From Salinisphaera shabanensis E1L3A (GTDB lineage Bacteria; Pseudomonadota; Gammaproteobacteria; Nevskiales; Salinisphaeraceae), in assembly GCF_000215955.2 (NCBI RefSeq), contig NZ_AFNV02000030.1:1-42077 (forward strand): DNA of 42,077 bases. The letters are read 5' to 3'. The first letter of the stretch is position 1; each line of letters starts with the position of its first letter. Shown here piece after piece: positions 35,460 through 41,002 of this stretch. A program made the position numbers and the translations under genes. The notes below the pieces were generated by a model, which did no database searches, had not been told where the DNA came from, and was given only the letters and a program-made list of their open reading frames with translations.

Positions 35460-36149
35460 ATGGCTGTGATGGGGGTCGACAGTCGAGACACGGGCCGGCG
35501 GCTTGCGGTCGGAATATGGCTATGGATGCTTGCCGTGCAGCCCGGCTGGGCCGCAGATCTCACCGTGCGCGTAACCGATCCCCAGGGCCGCCCGCTTGGC
35601 AATGCCGTCGTTGCGGTGCGGTGGCCCAATGCAGCCCCGGCTGAGCCGGATCCCGAACCGGCAGTAATGCGCCAGCGGGATATGACGTTCATCCCGCACG
35701 TATTGGCCGTGCCCGTGAATACCAGCGTGCTGTTCCCCAATTACGACAACACGCGCCACCACGTCTACTCGTTTTCCGAGGCCAAGACGTTCGATATCAA
35801 GCTGTATGTCGGCTTTCCGGAACGGCCGATTCTGTTCGACCAACCCGGTGTTATCGCGCTCGGCTGCAATATCCACGACAAGATGCATGCGTTCATCGTG
35901 GTTAACGATGCACCCAGGATGGCTGTCACGGCCAAAGACGGGCGTGCTGTACTCGAAAACGTCCCCGCCTTACCGCGCGAGCTCTATATTTGGCATGAAT
36001 GGCTTAATCATGGCCAGAAGGGTGTAATTCGGCACGCGGCGGCCGATATCAACTTTATACCTGTCGATATCGATATATCACCGCCGCCTGCGTCGCCGCC
36101 AAAGGAATCCATGTCCCTGCAACAGCGATTCGATCGGATTGCCCAATGA
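35460..36149 (+). CDS. Periplasmic cupredoxin-like protein
   Basis: A 229-residue exported protein. ATG 35460 has GGGAG 4 nt upstream, and a signal peptide RRLAVGIWLWMLAVQPGWAAD follows. After an Ig-like start (LTVRVTDPQGRPLGNAVVAV) comes a plastocyanin-type domain: FPNYDNTRHHVYSF gives His100/His101, and LGCNIHDKMHAF gives Cys136, His139 and Met142, the Cys/His/Met spacing of blue copper or related sites. Proteins of this kind are often labelled methylamine utilisation proteins, without evidence here. It may bind copper and sense or carry electrons. It overlaps the GGDEF-EAL gene by 4 nt (ATGA). Copper binding is inferred from the ligand pattern. Confidence 0.85.
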   Translation: MAVMGVDSRDTGRRLAVGIWLWMLAVQPGWAADLTVRVTDPQGRPLGNAVVAVRWPNAAPAEPDPEPAVMRQRDMTFIPHVLAVPVNTSVLFPNYDNTRHHVYSFSEAKTFDIKLYVGFPERPILFDQPGVIALGCNIHDKMHAFIVVNDAPRMAVTAKDGRAVLENVPALPRELYIWHEWLNHGQKGVIRHAAADINFIPVDIDISPPPASPPKESMSLQQRFDRIAQ

Positions 36150-38470
36150 CCCTGCGCCCGCGCACGTTCCGAAACCAGCTCATGATCGTGCTGCTCGGTT
36201 TCGTGCTACTGGCCGAACTTACTGTGACGATCGCTATTCTGCATCGCACTTATAACCAACGCGTAAGCCAGGCGCACGATACCCTCCAGGTCGCCAATCG
36301 GGTGCTCGACCGAGTACTCAACCTACGCGCCGAGCAGCTACTGGCCACGGTCAGCATTCTGACCTCGGATTACGGGTTCAAATCCGCGATCGCGACCCAG
36401 GACGAGCCCACGCAGCGTACGGTGCTGCGCAACTTTGGCGACCGCGCGCATGCTGACCTGGCCACCCTCGCGGCCCCCTCGGGCGAACTGACCACGCAAG
36501 TGCCGCGTACCGACGCCGATCTGAGTATCGAGCCATTCAATAACGTGCTCGAACGGGCCCGGCGCCTGGGCCGTGCCAGCGGTCTGGTAATGGTCGACGA
36601 ACGCCCCTACCAGTACGTCATCGCGCCGGTGAATGCGCCGCGGCTTATCGCCTGGGTCGGTATGGGTTTTCTCGTCGACGCCAATATTGCCCGCAACGTG
36701 GCCAGCGTAACCGGGGTGAACGTCAACTTCATCGTGCACGAAGGCGAGCGCGAATTATTCTCCACTGGCCCACAGAATCAGCACGGCGATGTGTCGCTCG
36801 AAGGCGATGCGTTTCTTAGCGAACGACATACCCTGTTCGATGCGGACGGCCGCCAGTTGGACGTAGCGTTGTCGTTGTCCAGACAAACAGTACTGTCGCC
36901 CTACTACGATCTGGCAAGCAGCCTAAGCCTGGTATTCGTTGTCACCATCGGCTTCAGCGCACTGGTCGCGATCGCGCTGGCGCGCCGGCTGAGCCAACCG
37001 GTCCGCGAACTCAGCGAATTCGCCGAGTCGGTCGCTGCTGGACAATACCACGAGACCCCGGGCGCCCAAGGCATCGGCGAATTCGATGTGCTCAGCGATG
37101 CGCTCAACGATATGCAGATCGCGGTACGACAACGCGAAAACCGTATCCGCCACCAGGCTACGCACGACGCGCTCACCGGCCTGCCCAACCGCAACGTCGT
37201 TCGCGACGTGCTCTACCGGCAGATGAACGATGGCGCCCGAGTTACCCTCGTACGATTCGCGTTACACGGTTTTTCGCGTATCAACAGCGCGCTCGGCTAC
37301 AAGCTGGGCGACGAGGTACTCAAAACCGTCGCCGGCCGTCTCAAAAATGCCTGCACCATGGCGCACACGCTGGGACGGATTGAAGGTAACGACTTTCTGG
37401 CACTTATCGAATGTAGCGCCGACGACGACGAGATCGACGCGCTGGTCGACCGTATACGCGCCCCGGTGGAACAGCCGCTGTATCTTCAGCATACGTCGAT
37501 CCAGCTGTTGCTCGATATCGGCGTCGTTCGCGTACCCGACCATGCGAACGATATCGAATCTGCGTGGCGGCGCACCGTTATCGCGCGGGACGCGTCACGC
37601 CAGCGTCGCTGCGCGACTTTTCTATACCAGCCCGGCATGGACGAGGCGCATCAACGCGAATTGACTATCATCCAGGGTATCGTCCCAGGCATCGAGCAAG
37701 GCGAAATGTCGCTCGTGTATCAGCCCAAGATGGCGCTTGCCAGCGCCCGGATCGTACAGGCCGAGGCGCTCGCCCGCTGGAACCACCCGACCCTCGGACC
37801 GATCTCCCCGGACGAATTCATTCAGTTGGCCGAACGCTCGGGGCAAATTAGGCTCGTTACCGAGTGGGTCGTCAAACAAGTCTGTCGTGATCTCGCGCAC
37901 TGGCACGCCAACGGCTTGTCCATCGGCGTCGCGATCAATCTCTCTGCAGACGAGATCGCGCAGAGCGAACTCGAGGCAACGCTCGCTCCCCTATTGGAGC
38001 AATGCCGGACCAGCGAGAAAATTACGCTCGAAGTCACTGAAAGCGCGTTACTGCGCGATCCCCAGACGGCCCTGCAGAATCTTCGTGCGCTCCAGGCGCG
38101 CGGTGCGCGTATATCGGTCGATGATTTCGGCACCGGCTATTCGTCACTTGCCCAACTCAAACGCCTGGCGCCGGACGAGCTCAAGATCGACAAGTCTTTT
38201 GTGTTCGGGCTCGCCGAAACCCCGGCCGATCAGTTCATCGTCGACCTGATTATCGATCTCGGCCACAAGCTCGGGCTCGAAGTGGTCGCCGAAGGCATCG
38301 AGAACGCAGCATCCTGGCGATATCTGACGCACCGCGGTGCCGATCTCATGCAGGGCTATTTCCTGTCCCGGCCGATGCCTGCAGACGCCATGATTGCCTG
38401 GGTCGGCGAACATGACGCCAATCGCGCACGCTGGCTCAACCACGCAAGCGACCCACAGCCACAACAATGA
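36146..38470 (+). CDS. Membrane sensor with degenerate GGDEF and intact EAL domain
   Basis: A 774-residue inner-membrane protein predicted to hydrolyse c-di-GMP. Order: short cytoplasmic start, TM1 (about 12-33), periplasmic sensor domain (about 35-255), TM2 (about 256-280), a HAMP-like linker, GGDEF-type domain (about 335-490) and EAL domain (about 510-755). The GGDEF signature is degraded to EGNDF (412-416), so it should not make c-di-GMP and may bind GTP or regulate. The EAL site is intact: EALARW (540-545), NLSADEI, LEVTESALL, VDDFGTGYSSL (Asp659, Asp660), LKIDKSF and VVAEGIEN. It overlaps both neighbours by 4 nt, so it is translated together with the cupredoxin and the outer-membrane protein. 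Confidence 0.93.
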   Translation: MTLRPRTFRNQLMIVLLGFVLLAELTVTIAILHRTYNQRVSQAHDTLQVANRVLDRVLNLRAEQLLATVSILTSDYGFKSAIATQDEPTQRTVLRNFGDRAHADLATLAAPSGELTTQVPRTDADLSIEPFNNVLERARRLGRASGLVMVDERPYQYVIAPVNAPRLIAWVGMGFLVDANIARNVASVTGVNVNFIVHEGERELFSTGPQNQHGDVSLEGDAFLSERHTLFDADGRQLDVALSLSRQTVLSPYYDLASSLSLVFVVTIGFSALVAIALARRLSQPVRELSEFAESVAAGQYHETPGAQGIGEFDVLSDALNDMQIAVRQRENRIRHQATHDALTGLPNRNVVRDVLYRQMNDGARVTLVRFALHGFSRINSALGYKLGDEVLKTVAGRLKNACTMAHTLGRIEGNDFLALIECSADDDEIDALVDRIRAPVEQPLYLQHTSIQLLLDIGVVRVPDHANDIESAWRRTVIARDASRQRRCATFLYQPGMDEAHQRELTIIQGIVPGIEQGEMSLVYQPKMALASARIVQAEALARWNHPTLGPISPDEFIQLAERSGQIRLVTEWVVKQVCRDLAHWHANGLSIGVAINLSADEIAQSELEATLAPLLEQCRTSEKITLEVTESALLRDPQTALQNLRALQARGARISVDDFGTGYSSLAQLKRLAPDELKIDKSFVFGLAETPADQFIVDLIIDLGHKLGLEVVAEGIENAASWRYLTHRGADLMQGYFLSRPMPADAMIAWVGEHDANRARWLNHASDPQPQQ

Positions 38471-39327
38471 ATAGCGTGTCGAACCGATACCGCTATTACC
38501 CAGCATGGGCGTTCGCGCTGCTGCTCACCGTAGCCACGATCGCTCAGGCGAACGGCAGCCGTCTTTGGGCAACCGGCGGTGTGACCAATGTCAACGGCAC
38601 AGCCGGCGGCGGCATCACGACCTGGGCTGTGCTCAACGGCTATGCCAGCGATAGTGAATCCACCCTCAACTTGTCGACCTCGACCGCACGTGTCGACGAT
38701 TTCAACCTGCAAACGCTGAGTGTTGGCTTTAACTGGGCCAACCGGCTGGCCGTTACCGTGGCTCACAATCGGTTGGACGTAAAACCACTCGCCATCGACA
38801 TCCGACAGCAGACCGTTGGGCTCAAGTTGCGCCTGGCAGGCGAAGCACTATACGACCGATTCGGCCAATACAGCGTGGGTATGCAATATACCCACAACGC
38901 CGATTTCGGCGTACCGGCCCTGCTCGGCGCTGTGGACAACCACGGCGTGGATTTCTATTTCGCTGCCAGCAAGGTATTTCTTGCAGCGATTGCCAACCGC
39001 AACGTCATCGTCAATGCCACCGCGCGCGCTACCCGTGCCAACCAGCTCGGTCTGCTCGGCTTCGGCAGTGCCAATGACAACAGTTACGAACTCGTCGGCG
39101 AATTCGGCGCCGGGCTCTTCCTCAACCGTCGCTGGCTGATCGGGGCCGAGTATCGCGAGAAACCGGACAAGCTCGATAGCGTGACCGAGGACGATTGGAA
39201 AACGTTGTATCTGGTTTATGTACCCTCGCGGGCGCTTGCCTTTACCCTCGCCTATGTCGATCTAGGGCGGGTTGCGGGGTTCGACGATCAGACCGGCTAT
39301 TTTCTATCGCTGCAGACAGGCTTTTAG
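38467..39327 (+). CDS. DUF3034-like outer-membrane protein
   Basis: A 286-residue protein with signal peptide (AFALLLTVATIAQANG) and a Gly/Asn/Tyr/Thr-rich body with alternating hydrophobic strands ending in aromatic Phe, as in outer-membrane beta-barrels. The pattern (LWATGGVTNVNGTAGGGITTWAVL, then FNWANRLAVTVAHNRL and DQTGYFLSLQTGF) fits the DUF3034 family, whose function is unknown. It overlaps the preceding EAL gene by 4 nt and precedes the globin by 1 nt. DUF3034 is assigned from memory of pattern and context, not by search. Confidence 0.75.
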   Translation: MNSVSNRYRYYPAWAFALLLTVATIAQANGSRLWATGGVTNVNGTAGGGITTWAVLNGYASDSESTLNLSTSTARVDDFNLQTLSVGFNWANRLAVTVAHNRLDVKPLAIDIRQQTVGLKLRLAGEALYDRFGQYSVGMQYTHNADFGVPALLGAVDNHGVDFYFAASKVFLAAIANRNVIVNATARATRANQLGLLGFGSANDNSYELVGEFGAGLFLNRRWLIGAEYREKPDKLDSVTEDDWKTLYLVYVPSRALAFTLAYVDLGRVAGFDDQTGYFLSLQTGF

Positions 39328-39328
39328 G

Positions 39329-39858
39329 ATGGGCGCGAGACTTCGTTTAAGCGCTGCCTGGGCACCAATCACGGTCGTGGTGGCGCTGACCCTGAGCGCA
39401 TGTCAATCGATGCCGGCTCACGATCGCAGCCTGTACCGTGCACTGGGCGAACGCGAGGGCATCGCCGAACTCACCGAAACACTGTTGCTGACAGTCGCCG
39501 GCGACAAACGTATCGCCGGCGATTTCCGACGCGTGGATATCGATCGCCTGCATCGCATGCTGACCGACTATATCTGCGTGATCGCGGACGGGCCGTGTGA
39601 ATACACCGGCGATAGCATGCTCAACGCGCATCGCGGCCAACAGATCAGCAGCGCCGACTTCAACGCGCTGGTCGAAGACCTTGTGCTATCGATGGAAGAA
39701 CACGGTTTGCCCACCGCAACCCAAAATCGCTTACTGGCGCGTCTTGCGCGCGATCGACGCGCGATCGTCGACGCACCGGCGCCGCCCTCGCCCGAACTAC
39801 GCCAACTCATCCTTGGCGACCTTCCACTATCCCGATATAGTGCTCCCCGCGATGTACG

Positions 39859-39868
<10 letters not shown>
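39329..39868 (+). CDS. Lipoprotein group 1 truncated haemoglobin
   Basis: A 179-residue lipoprotein with signal peptide and lipobox LTLSAC (lipid Cys25), followed by a globin core of trHb-N type: SLYRALGEREGIAELTETL, RRVDIDRLHRMLTDYICVI, and MLNAHRGQQISSADFNALVEDL with the likely proximal haem ligand His101. Export and lipidation put it on the periplasmic side of the envelope, unusual for a globin. The B10 Tyr of many group 1 globins seems to be absent (LTETLLLTV at that place). The last codons and stop (39859-39868) run into the tRNA gene. Gas binding (O2, NO) is inferred from the family. Confidence 0.85.
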
Positions 39869-39935
<67 letters not shown>

Positions 39936-40042: not shown

Positions 40043-41002
40043 ATGAAAAATATAACAATAAGCCGTACCCGGATCGCGCAAATTGCGCACAAAGCTCAAA
40101 AGGTTATAGAGATATGGTGGGTGCGGTTTGTGATTATACCCGCGCTCCAATCGATACCCGGCGCGTTATTTTTTGCCACCCTACGCGTTGATAAAGCGGA
40201 CAGCCTTTACCGCCCCATTCGACCTCTCTACAACTGGGTCAACCAGAACCCATTCTTAGCATCGGTAATTGTTGCCCTCTATGTCATCGGTTTAAACGCG
40301 ATAATTTCAGGCGTTCATCGATTAGCAAAAGGCAGCGAACGTGTAGAAATCAAAGACCTTCTCCGTCTCTTCGAAGTGCTCGAGACTATCGTGGGGTCCA
40401 AATCTAAACGCTTTGGGGAGTACGTCTCTACCAGCTATAAGAAACCGCGCAGCGAATTCTCGGCGGAAGCGACCTTTAGGAATATAACGCAGCCAGATCA
40501 GCAGATTGCGCTACTGAATATTGGCATTCAGACTTTCTTTGACGCTATCGATCGACACGATACTAATATTGCTACAGCAATTGTGAGCGTGAGCGAAAAC
40601 GGCGCCCCTGAAAGCTGGTTCCATTTCCACCCCGACAGCAAACCACCGCTAGCTACGCCGGAGGAGTTGGCAAAACCGGACAGCACAGTCATGCATGCGA
40701 TCAAACGGCGGCGCATGGTCATCATAGAAGACATCGCGGCCGAAGCTAAAAAACCTGACCGCTCTAGACGTTATAGAAAGGTAGAGAACGAAGATGAAGA
40801 GGGGTCGCTAATTTGCTACCCTATTATCGATGGCAGCAGCAACAAAGTCCCGTACGTGGTGTCTATTAAGGCGGATCGTAAAAAGTACTTCCGCAAACAC
40901 CACAGCGAGTTTTATAGCTGGGTATTAGAAACGTTCGAAGTACGAATACGCTTAGAACATAGTCTGTTGTTATTACGGAGTCTAGCCGATGAGTGCAATT
41001 AA
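40043..41002 (+). CDS. Membrane-anchored GAF-like domain protein, unknown function
   Basis: 319 residues, not recognised as a named protein. Two hydrophobic segments (about 28-48, VRFVIIPALQSIPGALFF; and about 71-92, PFLASVIVALYVIGLNAII) form a membrane hairpin. A helical linker and a C-terminal domain (about 140-310) follow, with GAF-like order: ATAIVSVSENG, then MVIIEDIA, GSLICYPIID, VPYVVSIKADRKKYF and a final helix FYSWVLETFEVRIRLEHSLL. GAF domains bind small molecules such as cyclic nucleotides; the ligand here is unknown. The start has no clear Shine-Dalgarno, so the first 26 residues are uncertain. It is AT-rich compared with the chromosome and overlaps a small second gene by 14 nt. 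No effector domain is visible. Confidence 0.7.
   Translation: MKNITISRTRIAQIAHKAQKVIEIWWVRFVIIPALQSIPGALFFATLRVDKADSLYRPIRPLYNWVNQNPFLASVIVALYVIGLNAIISGVHRLAKGSERVEIKDLLRLFEVLETIVGSKSKRFGEYVSTSYKKPRSEFSAEATFRNITQPDQQIALLNIGIQTFFDAIDRHDTNIATAIVSVSENGAPESWFHFHPDSKPPLATPEELAKPDSTVMHAIKRRRMVIIEDIAAEAKKPDRSRRYRKVENEDEEGSLICYPIIDGSSNKVPYVVSIKADRKKYFRKHHSEFYSWVLETFEVRIRLEHSLLLLRSLADECN

Follow-up and report, generated by a model that had tools for sequence, protein, structure and literature searches.

The closest described parallels to the locus treated here are two envelope-spanning systems. In Vibrio cholerae, NspS and MbaA form a two-gene arrangement of input and output in which a periplasmic protein controls an inner-membrane enzyme of cyclic di-GMP (c-di-GMP) metabolism, and NspS, according to PMC8967002, is a polyamine-binding solute-binding protein. 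The YfiBNR (TpbB) system of Pseudomonas aeruginosa consists of an outer-membrane protein, a periplasmic protein, and an inner-membrane HAMP-containing c-di-GMP enzyme. Here we describe a four-gene block of Salinisphaera shabanensis E1L3A that encodes a cupredoxin-like protein, a dCache_3-HAMP-GGDEF-EAL sensor, a DUF3034 protein, and a truncated haemoglobin; it would work like NspS-MbaA and YfiBNR and yet fails their defining features. The block lies on contig NZ_AFNV02000030.1 (C12 of genome G000), whose entire 42,077 nt are the stretch analysed (the window). Our principal observation is that the cupredoxin is the genomic partner of one periplasmic sensor family whose output is swapped between loci.

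The differences from both systems are substantial. The sensor's partner in the window is a cupredoxin by profile rather than a solute-binding protein, and the NspS-MbaA plan is extended by an outer-membrane-like protein, a globin, and the swapping of the output. YfiN makes c-di-GMP, whereas the window has an EAL output, and its EAL protein scores 101.5 against the NCBIfam YfiN/DgcN model, below the cut-off of 325. YfiR and the OmpA-like YfiB are unrelated to the cupredoxin and DUF3034 as far as family scans go, and we know of no copper or haem protein in YfiBNR. Two members of the block also have relatives of their own. The cupredoxin resembles amicyanin, plastocyanin, pseudoazurin, and CuNIR domains in its profile and in its type 1 ligands but is larger, carries extra domain sequence, and is paired with a sensor gene instead of a redox enzyme. 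The globin resembles mycobacterial HbN by profile match and proximal His but belongs to a family that is exported, has two invariant Cys residues, and is apolar at the distal Tyr/Gln columns. In plasmid records the product name of the cupredoxin is "methylamine utilization protein." Searches of the open-licence literature found no paper joining this name with truncated hemoglobin and EAL domain or with c-di-GMP, none joining cupredoxin with c-di-GMP, EAL domain, and operon, and none joining truncated hemoglobin with lipoprotein, periplasmic, and signal peptide. The product name by itself returned nothing on this system as judged from titles and the opening lines of abstracts. By title, cupredoxin with diguanylate cyclase returned nothing on this system, cupredoxin with sensor histidine kinase and periplasm returned nothing relevant among the matches listed, and DUF3034 returned only unrelated papers.

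The cupredoxin and its sensor partners

The four genes lie on one strand, as the earlier note had read them, and the open reading frame (ORF) coordinates agree with its spacings: the cupredoxin/EAL and EAL/DUF3034 junctions are 4-nt ATGA overlaps and a single nucleotide separates the DUF3034 and globin genes. The translations were inspected by eye for signal peptides, membrane spans, and the lipobox. The features are as follows.

35460..36149, + strand: exported cupredoxin-like protein (ORF; its family profile matches CuNIR and amicyanin)
His 35757-35759, Cys 35865-35867, His 35874-35876, Met 35883-35885, + strand: predicted type 1 copper ligand set (alignment)
36146..38470, + strand: dCache_3-HAMP-degenerate GGDEF-EAL inner-membrane protein (Pfam)
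36266..36745, + strand: periplasmic dCache_3 sensor domain, residues 41-200 (Pfam)
37382..37396, + strand: degenerate GGDEF motif, EGNDF (residue check against homologues)
37691..38374, + strand: EAL domain with intact catalytic residues, residues 516-743 (Pfam, residue check)
38467..39327, + strand: DUF3034 protein, probable outer-membrane beta-barrel (Pfam, 1.8e-86)
39329..39868, + strand: lipoprotein-like group 1 truncated haemoglobin (Bac_globin, 3.9e-07)
39859..39935, + strand: tRNA-Met (ARAGORN)

Three ATG codons (35436, 35460, and 35469) are candidates for the cupredoxin start, and the sequence GGGAGA stands three bases 5' of 35460. Promoter and terminator patterns at the locus were no more frequent than in shuffled sequence.

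Of the 369 genomes sampled from the class, 93 contain matches to the cupredoxin profile. Many of these matches are distant; 20 regions around closer ones outside DUF3034 loci were examined. A sensor of the partner family is found near the cupredoxin in 14 of the 20, adjacent to it in 11 and about 0.8 kb off in three (L165, L169, L170). The outputs of these sensors differ: Pfam identifies GGDEF-EAL in L165, a class III cyclase in L166, L167, L171, and L174, HisKA/HATPase in L168, and a Ser/Thr kinase in L177, L179, and L180, and L169, L170, L173, L175, and L176 hold EAL proteins by profile. The periplasmic domain aligns across the EAL, cyclase, histidine-kinase, and Ser/Thr-kinase sensors and is homologous among them; since L166 lacks a dCache_3 match and L179 and L180 have only sub-threshold dCache_1 matches, the kinship of these three sensors rests on the profile and the alignment. 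The output changes counted on trees number five for the cupredoxin and three for the sensor (a quick tree), and three is the trivial minimum for four labels, so the outputs have switched a few times and not often.

The pairing is also seen from the side of the sensor. A search of the class genomes with the sensor profile A9, in which no more than five candidates were scored per genome, gave 42 full-length sensors from 48 listed rows after five partial rows were omitted and two pieces in G085 were merged. For comparison, 43 of 117 cupredoxin rows were used, the others lying, by eye, on contigs without any of the 42 sensors. A cupredoxin match lies within 4 kb of 32 of the 42 sensors and within 300 nt of 29, and such a match is present in 34 of the 39 sensor genomes versus 59 of the 330 others (p 4.7e-18, uncorrected for relatedness). 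A closer set of 16 genomes contains 13 strong full-length sensors in 12 genomes, and 12 of the 13 (that of G610 included) are near a cupredoxin; the G508 sensor lies away from one, and the cupredoxin of that genome is at its DUF3034 locus. All other sensor rows in this set start at profile position 179 at least and cover mainly the HAMP end.

Beside the pair, a third gene often encodes an outer-membrane-like protein; in the window this place is held by DUF3034, which brings the globin with it. Outside DUF3034 loci, an outer-membrane-like gene is present at 8 of the 14 sensor loci in two loose groups (L165, L167, and L170; L166, L168, L173, L175, and L176), a label based on sub-threshold Pfam matches for some, a Porin P match with an E value of 0.065, and appearance. 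Kinship between DUF3034 and these proteins was considered and is unsupported, with hhalign probabilities of 7.4% and 1.1%. At two cyclase loci (L171, 6970-8274; L174, 8255-9556), the third gene encodes a HAMP-containing, probably coiled-coil membrane protein, recognized by Pfam in L171 and by similar position and start in L174.

The recurrence of cupredoxin and sensor with different outputs hints at an undescribed form of sensing of conditions outside the cell. We propose, at roughly even odds, that the pair belongs to a modular receptor spanning the envelope, whose input is a blue-copper protein that reports redox or copper state. The exported cupredoxin would dock on the periplasmic dCache_3 domain of the neighboring sensor, and its state, most likely reduced versus oxidized copper, would pass through HAMP to the cytoplasmic output, which at the window locus would be a c-di-GMP phosphodiesterase. 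For its part, DUF3034 as the outer-membrane partner at this locus may supply or report the species by which the cupredoxin's state is determined, and the exported globin probably acts at the same membrane as DUF3034. We assign the cupredoxin to the input because the recurring pair keeps it while the outputs change. The more specific form of the proposal is a new receptor class whose ligand would be a dedicated blue-copper protein: the redox state of a periplasmic cupredoxin, supplied through the envelope by an outer-membrane protein (here together with an exported globin), would be read by an inner-membrane Cache sensor, and the one input would serve four outputs (c-di-GMP hydrolysis, nucleotide cyclase, histidine kinase, and Ser/Thr kinase). 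This form is put forward tentatively and falls short of even odds.

A number of observations weigh against this proposal. Five of the 20 regions (L172, L178, L182-L184) have no sensor, and the sensor of L181 is 1.8 kb away. Ten of the 42 sensors stand away from a cupredoxin (those of G171, G312, G117, G348, G233, G334, G037, and G321, one of two in G368, and that of G147, at a contig end), five of the 39 sensor genomes have no cupredoxin match at all, G107 lacks a full-length sensor despite having a cupredoxin, and three DUF3034 loci with a cupredoxin (L061, L075, L092) have no sensor at the locus. Profile A9 was itself built from sensors beside cupredoxins. As G171 illustrates below, the EAL gene can outlast its partners. 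Finally, the AlphaFold2 (AF2) models are of low confidence and give no view of copper-site geometry or of any interface.

Conservation and history of the four-gene block

DUF3034 is present in 18 of the 369 class genomes, 3 of 17 family genomes, and 39 of 398 phylum genomes, samples that overlap and that include G000. The conservation survey comprised 54 DUF3034 regions from 53 genomes, with the window excluded; gene calls were longest ORFs, which makes starts and spacings rough. A DUF3034 fragment at a contig end in G207 falls outside the 54 regions, a scan of the contig collection yielded two loci, the counts coming from the sampled genomes, and alignment A3 leaves out L104 (a second, broken DUF3034 place in G449) and the L051 fragment. 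The earlier note had named gene order as a check on its reading, with lack of conservation as grounds for refutation; this check leaves the reading unrefuted, and the order proved to be widely kept: cupredoxin, EAL, DUF3034, and globin genes follow one another on one strand in 29 of the 54 regions (L051 and L068, with broken EAL genes, included), an EAL-cupredoxin pair is divergent from a DUF3034-globin pair in six, and two further regions hold all four genes in other orders, for a total of 37. Chance adjacency was rejected in view of the 29 regions of identical order and the proximity of sensor and cupredoxin, and the four genes are a real conserved unit. On plasmids, DUF3034 occurs in 13 records, 12 of which also carry the cupredoxin; regions L185 and L187 have all four genes, and L186, from a Comamonas plasmid, has a DUF4394-cupredoxin-EAL arrangement.

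The remaining regions show how the block comes apart. DUF3034 and globin occur without cupredoxin and EAL in seven, DUF3034 stands alone in five, DUF3034-globin-cupredoxin is found in two (L061 and L092), and EAL-DUF3034-globin in one (L090, from G492, which has its cupredoxin elsewhere, next to an outer-membrane-like gene). L075 has cupredoxin-DUF3034-globin and, nearby, an EAL protein without a sensor of this family, and L055 has DUF3034, the cupredoxin, a Porin_5 gene, and a sensor Ser/Thr kinase but lacks a globin. Overall, the globin is near DUF3034 in 48 of 54 regions and the cupredoxin in 41. A close cupredoxin is present in 46 of the 53 DUF3034 genomes; among the other seven, G259 and G156 have weak matches, that of G259 beside a sensor. 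L063, L064, and L065 are globin-less regions in which DUF3034 lies near a protein of 445-464 aa with a PAS-like start, recognized by eye, and perhaps represent a different DUF3034 setting.

These counts bear on a reading in which the block is two modules, the cupredoxin-sensor receptor and a DUF3034-globin pair with a separate outer-membrane haem function in nitric oxide (NO) or redox chemistry, which merely share regulation. It would account for the seven regions with DUF3034 and globin only, three of whose genomes (G358, G280, G449) have no cupredoxin match and no full-length sensor, for the six regions with divergent pairs, and for the globin, no member of whose family is found in any of the 20 cupredoxin regions outside DUF3034 loci. 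Pulling the other way are the 37 regions with all four genes, the pairwise distances of the four proteins, which correlate at r 0.71-0.83 over 36 loci with the species tree uncontrolled, and the other four of the seven globin-only genomes, which hold a cupredoxin elsewhere, beside an EAL sensor (in L195, L197, and L198, and by match coordinates in L196 of G752). We consider two independent modules a real possibility, though one with less than an even chance. DUF3034 and the globin do make up a second pair that can be separated from the first; under the receptor proposal, its simplest function would be to link the receptor with the outer membrane or with a haem ligand.

Within the genus, the block has a defined site. 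In G380 and G381 as in the window, it is flanked by rpoD, upstream, and tRNA-Met, and in the window the tRNA shares 10 nt with the 3' end of the globin gene (39859-39868). The rpoD end was compared in 10 relatives without DUF3034, four more of the 17 family genomes lying outside the comparison. In seven of the 10, rpoD is directly beside tRNA-Met; L133 has no tRNA within the compared stretch; and two retain an EAL gene alone, G171 with 81% identity and G379 with 46%. In G171 (L125, 489-3929), the bodies of the cupredoxin, DUF3034, and globin genes are lost, leaving the end of the globin gene and, recognizable by eye, the last codons of the cupredoxin gene, and the EAL gene is stop-free with a pairwise dN/dS of 0.10 to the window. 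The EAL gene of G381 contains one in-frame stop. The simplest reading is that the block was gained or lost as a unit, with partial decay. Pairwise dN/dS between the window and G380 is 0.15 for the cupredoxin, 0.16 for the EAL gene, 0.10 for DUF3034, and 0.26 for the globin, all rough values with dS above 1, and against G381 it is 0.36 for the cupredoxin and 0.26 for the globin. Beyond the tRNA, a 319-aa ORF (40043-41002) is without matches in Pfam and NCBIfam at E values up to 0.01.

Copper, haem, and c-di-GMP

The candidate copper site of the earlier note is a type 1 ligand set: its His, Cys, His, and Met are invariant in all 42 aligned cupredoxins, and C-x2-H-x2-M, which we take to be the ligand spacing of amicyanin, occurs in all 64 family members scanned. 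The family profile matches the CuNIR cupredoxin domain (7.7e-07) and amicyanin (6.2e-04); the single sequence finds only a sub-threshold CarboxypepD_reg match in Pfam, and the AF2 model has a mean predicted local distance difference test score (pLDDT) of 41. The protein is a candidate blue-copper protein, with copper binding predicted from sequence.

What the copper would report can be argued in two ways. The Cache domain could read loaded versus empty cupredoxin and so couple c-di-GMP to periplasmic copper, as a sensor of copper availability. Cupredoxins are known as electron carriers and as copper-resistance proteins, and the invariance of the copper ligands suits such a sensor; however, no recurring copper-efflux or chaperone gene was noted in the ORF-listed regions, whose neighbors were not systematically scanned, and type 1 sites typically belong to electron carriers. 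We regard a copper-availability sensor as unlikely. In the receptor proposal we favor redox state over copper loading because of this electron-carrier ligand set and the haem protein in the window operon.

The database name of the cupredoxin suggests another role, that of an amicyanin-like electron acceptor of methylamine dehydrogenase. The amicyanin-like ligand spacing and the presence of amicyanin among the profile matches agree with it, and G000 has a methylamine dehydrogenase light chain on contig C8; but the light chain is found in only 3 of 24 searched carriers, G000 being one of them, and a cytochrome-like ORF lies, by eye, beside the C8 cluster. Methylamine utilization was rejected as the role of the family on that count, a part in it for the window protein seems highly improbable, and the name "methylamine utilization protein" is unsupported for the family. 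The C8 cluster itself (L236, 4125-7500) comprises the light chain, identified by Pfam, and MauD-, MauE-, MauB-like, and cytochrome-like neighbors recognized by eye. In a transcriptome study (PMC3418162), an increase in a "methylamine utilization protein" (BPSS0404) was taken as a sign of methylamine use.

The window EAL protein is a predicted c-di-GMP phosphodiesterase with conserved catalytic residues, in agreement with the earlier note, which had also predicted its periplasmic sensor, now assigned to dCache_3 by Pfam. The EAL site is intact in all 37 homologues: 12 of the 13 positions checked are conserved in 37 of 37 and the A of EAL in 36. Pfam finds dCache_3 in 36 of the 37 and HAMP in 31, and GGDEF is intact in 13, the window protein having the degenerate EGNDF.

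DUF3034 is probably an outer-membrane protein, judging from its signal-like start, its aromatic C-terminus, and an all-beta AF2 model of low confidence (mean pLDDT 43). The last residue is F in 37, Y in 8, W in 3, and another residue in 7 of 55 rows, aromatic in 48. A scan of viral contigs with the DUF3034 alignment found no relative.

All 49 globins match Bac_globin in Pfam, and their profile matches HbN (4.6e-23). The proximal His, two Cys, and one Met are invariant in 49 of 49. The columns aligned with TyrB10 and GlnE11, which we take to be the distal residues of HbN, are apolar in 48 and 49 of the 49 sequences with a single Asn exception, so that the HbN-like polar distal pair is missing from the family. 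Apolar distal columns would disfavor stable O2 binding, leaving NO or electron transfer. Of the 49 longest ORFs, 27 show a lipobox-like pattern, and many others open, by eye, with signal-like sequence.

The earlier note had combined these proteins into a path in which copper and haem proteins read a periplasmic signal and pass it to the EAL enzyme. The copper half of that idea survives as the link between cupredoxin and sensor, which recurs with other outputs; the haem half finds no such support, for the globin follows DUF3034 and not the EAL enzyme, as seen in the 48 regions that join globin to DUF3034, seven of them devoid of cupredoxin and EAL. A receptor for O2 or NO, in which the globin haem binds the gas and signals to the EAL enzyme, would draw on the exported globin in the operon, its invariant proximal His, and the distal columns that leave room for NO, but the absence of the globin from all 20 cupredoxin regions outside DUF3034 loci makes it doubtful.

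Implications

If the receptor with a blue-copper input is real, periplasmic electron flow or copper state would be connected directly with second messengers and kinases. The same pair occurs with four kinds of output, so the carrier that offers the easiest assay would serve to test the idea. The receptor would further point to a function of DUF3034 and of a branch of exported truncated haemoglobins, put right the database name "methylamine utilization protein," and give a family of EAL enzymes an input.

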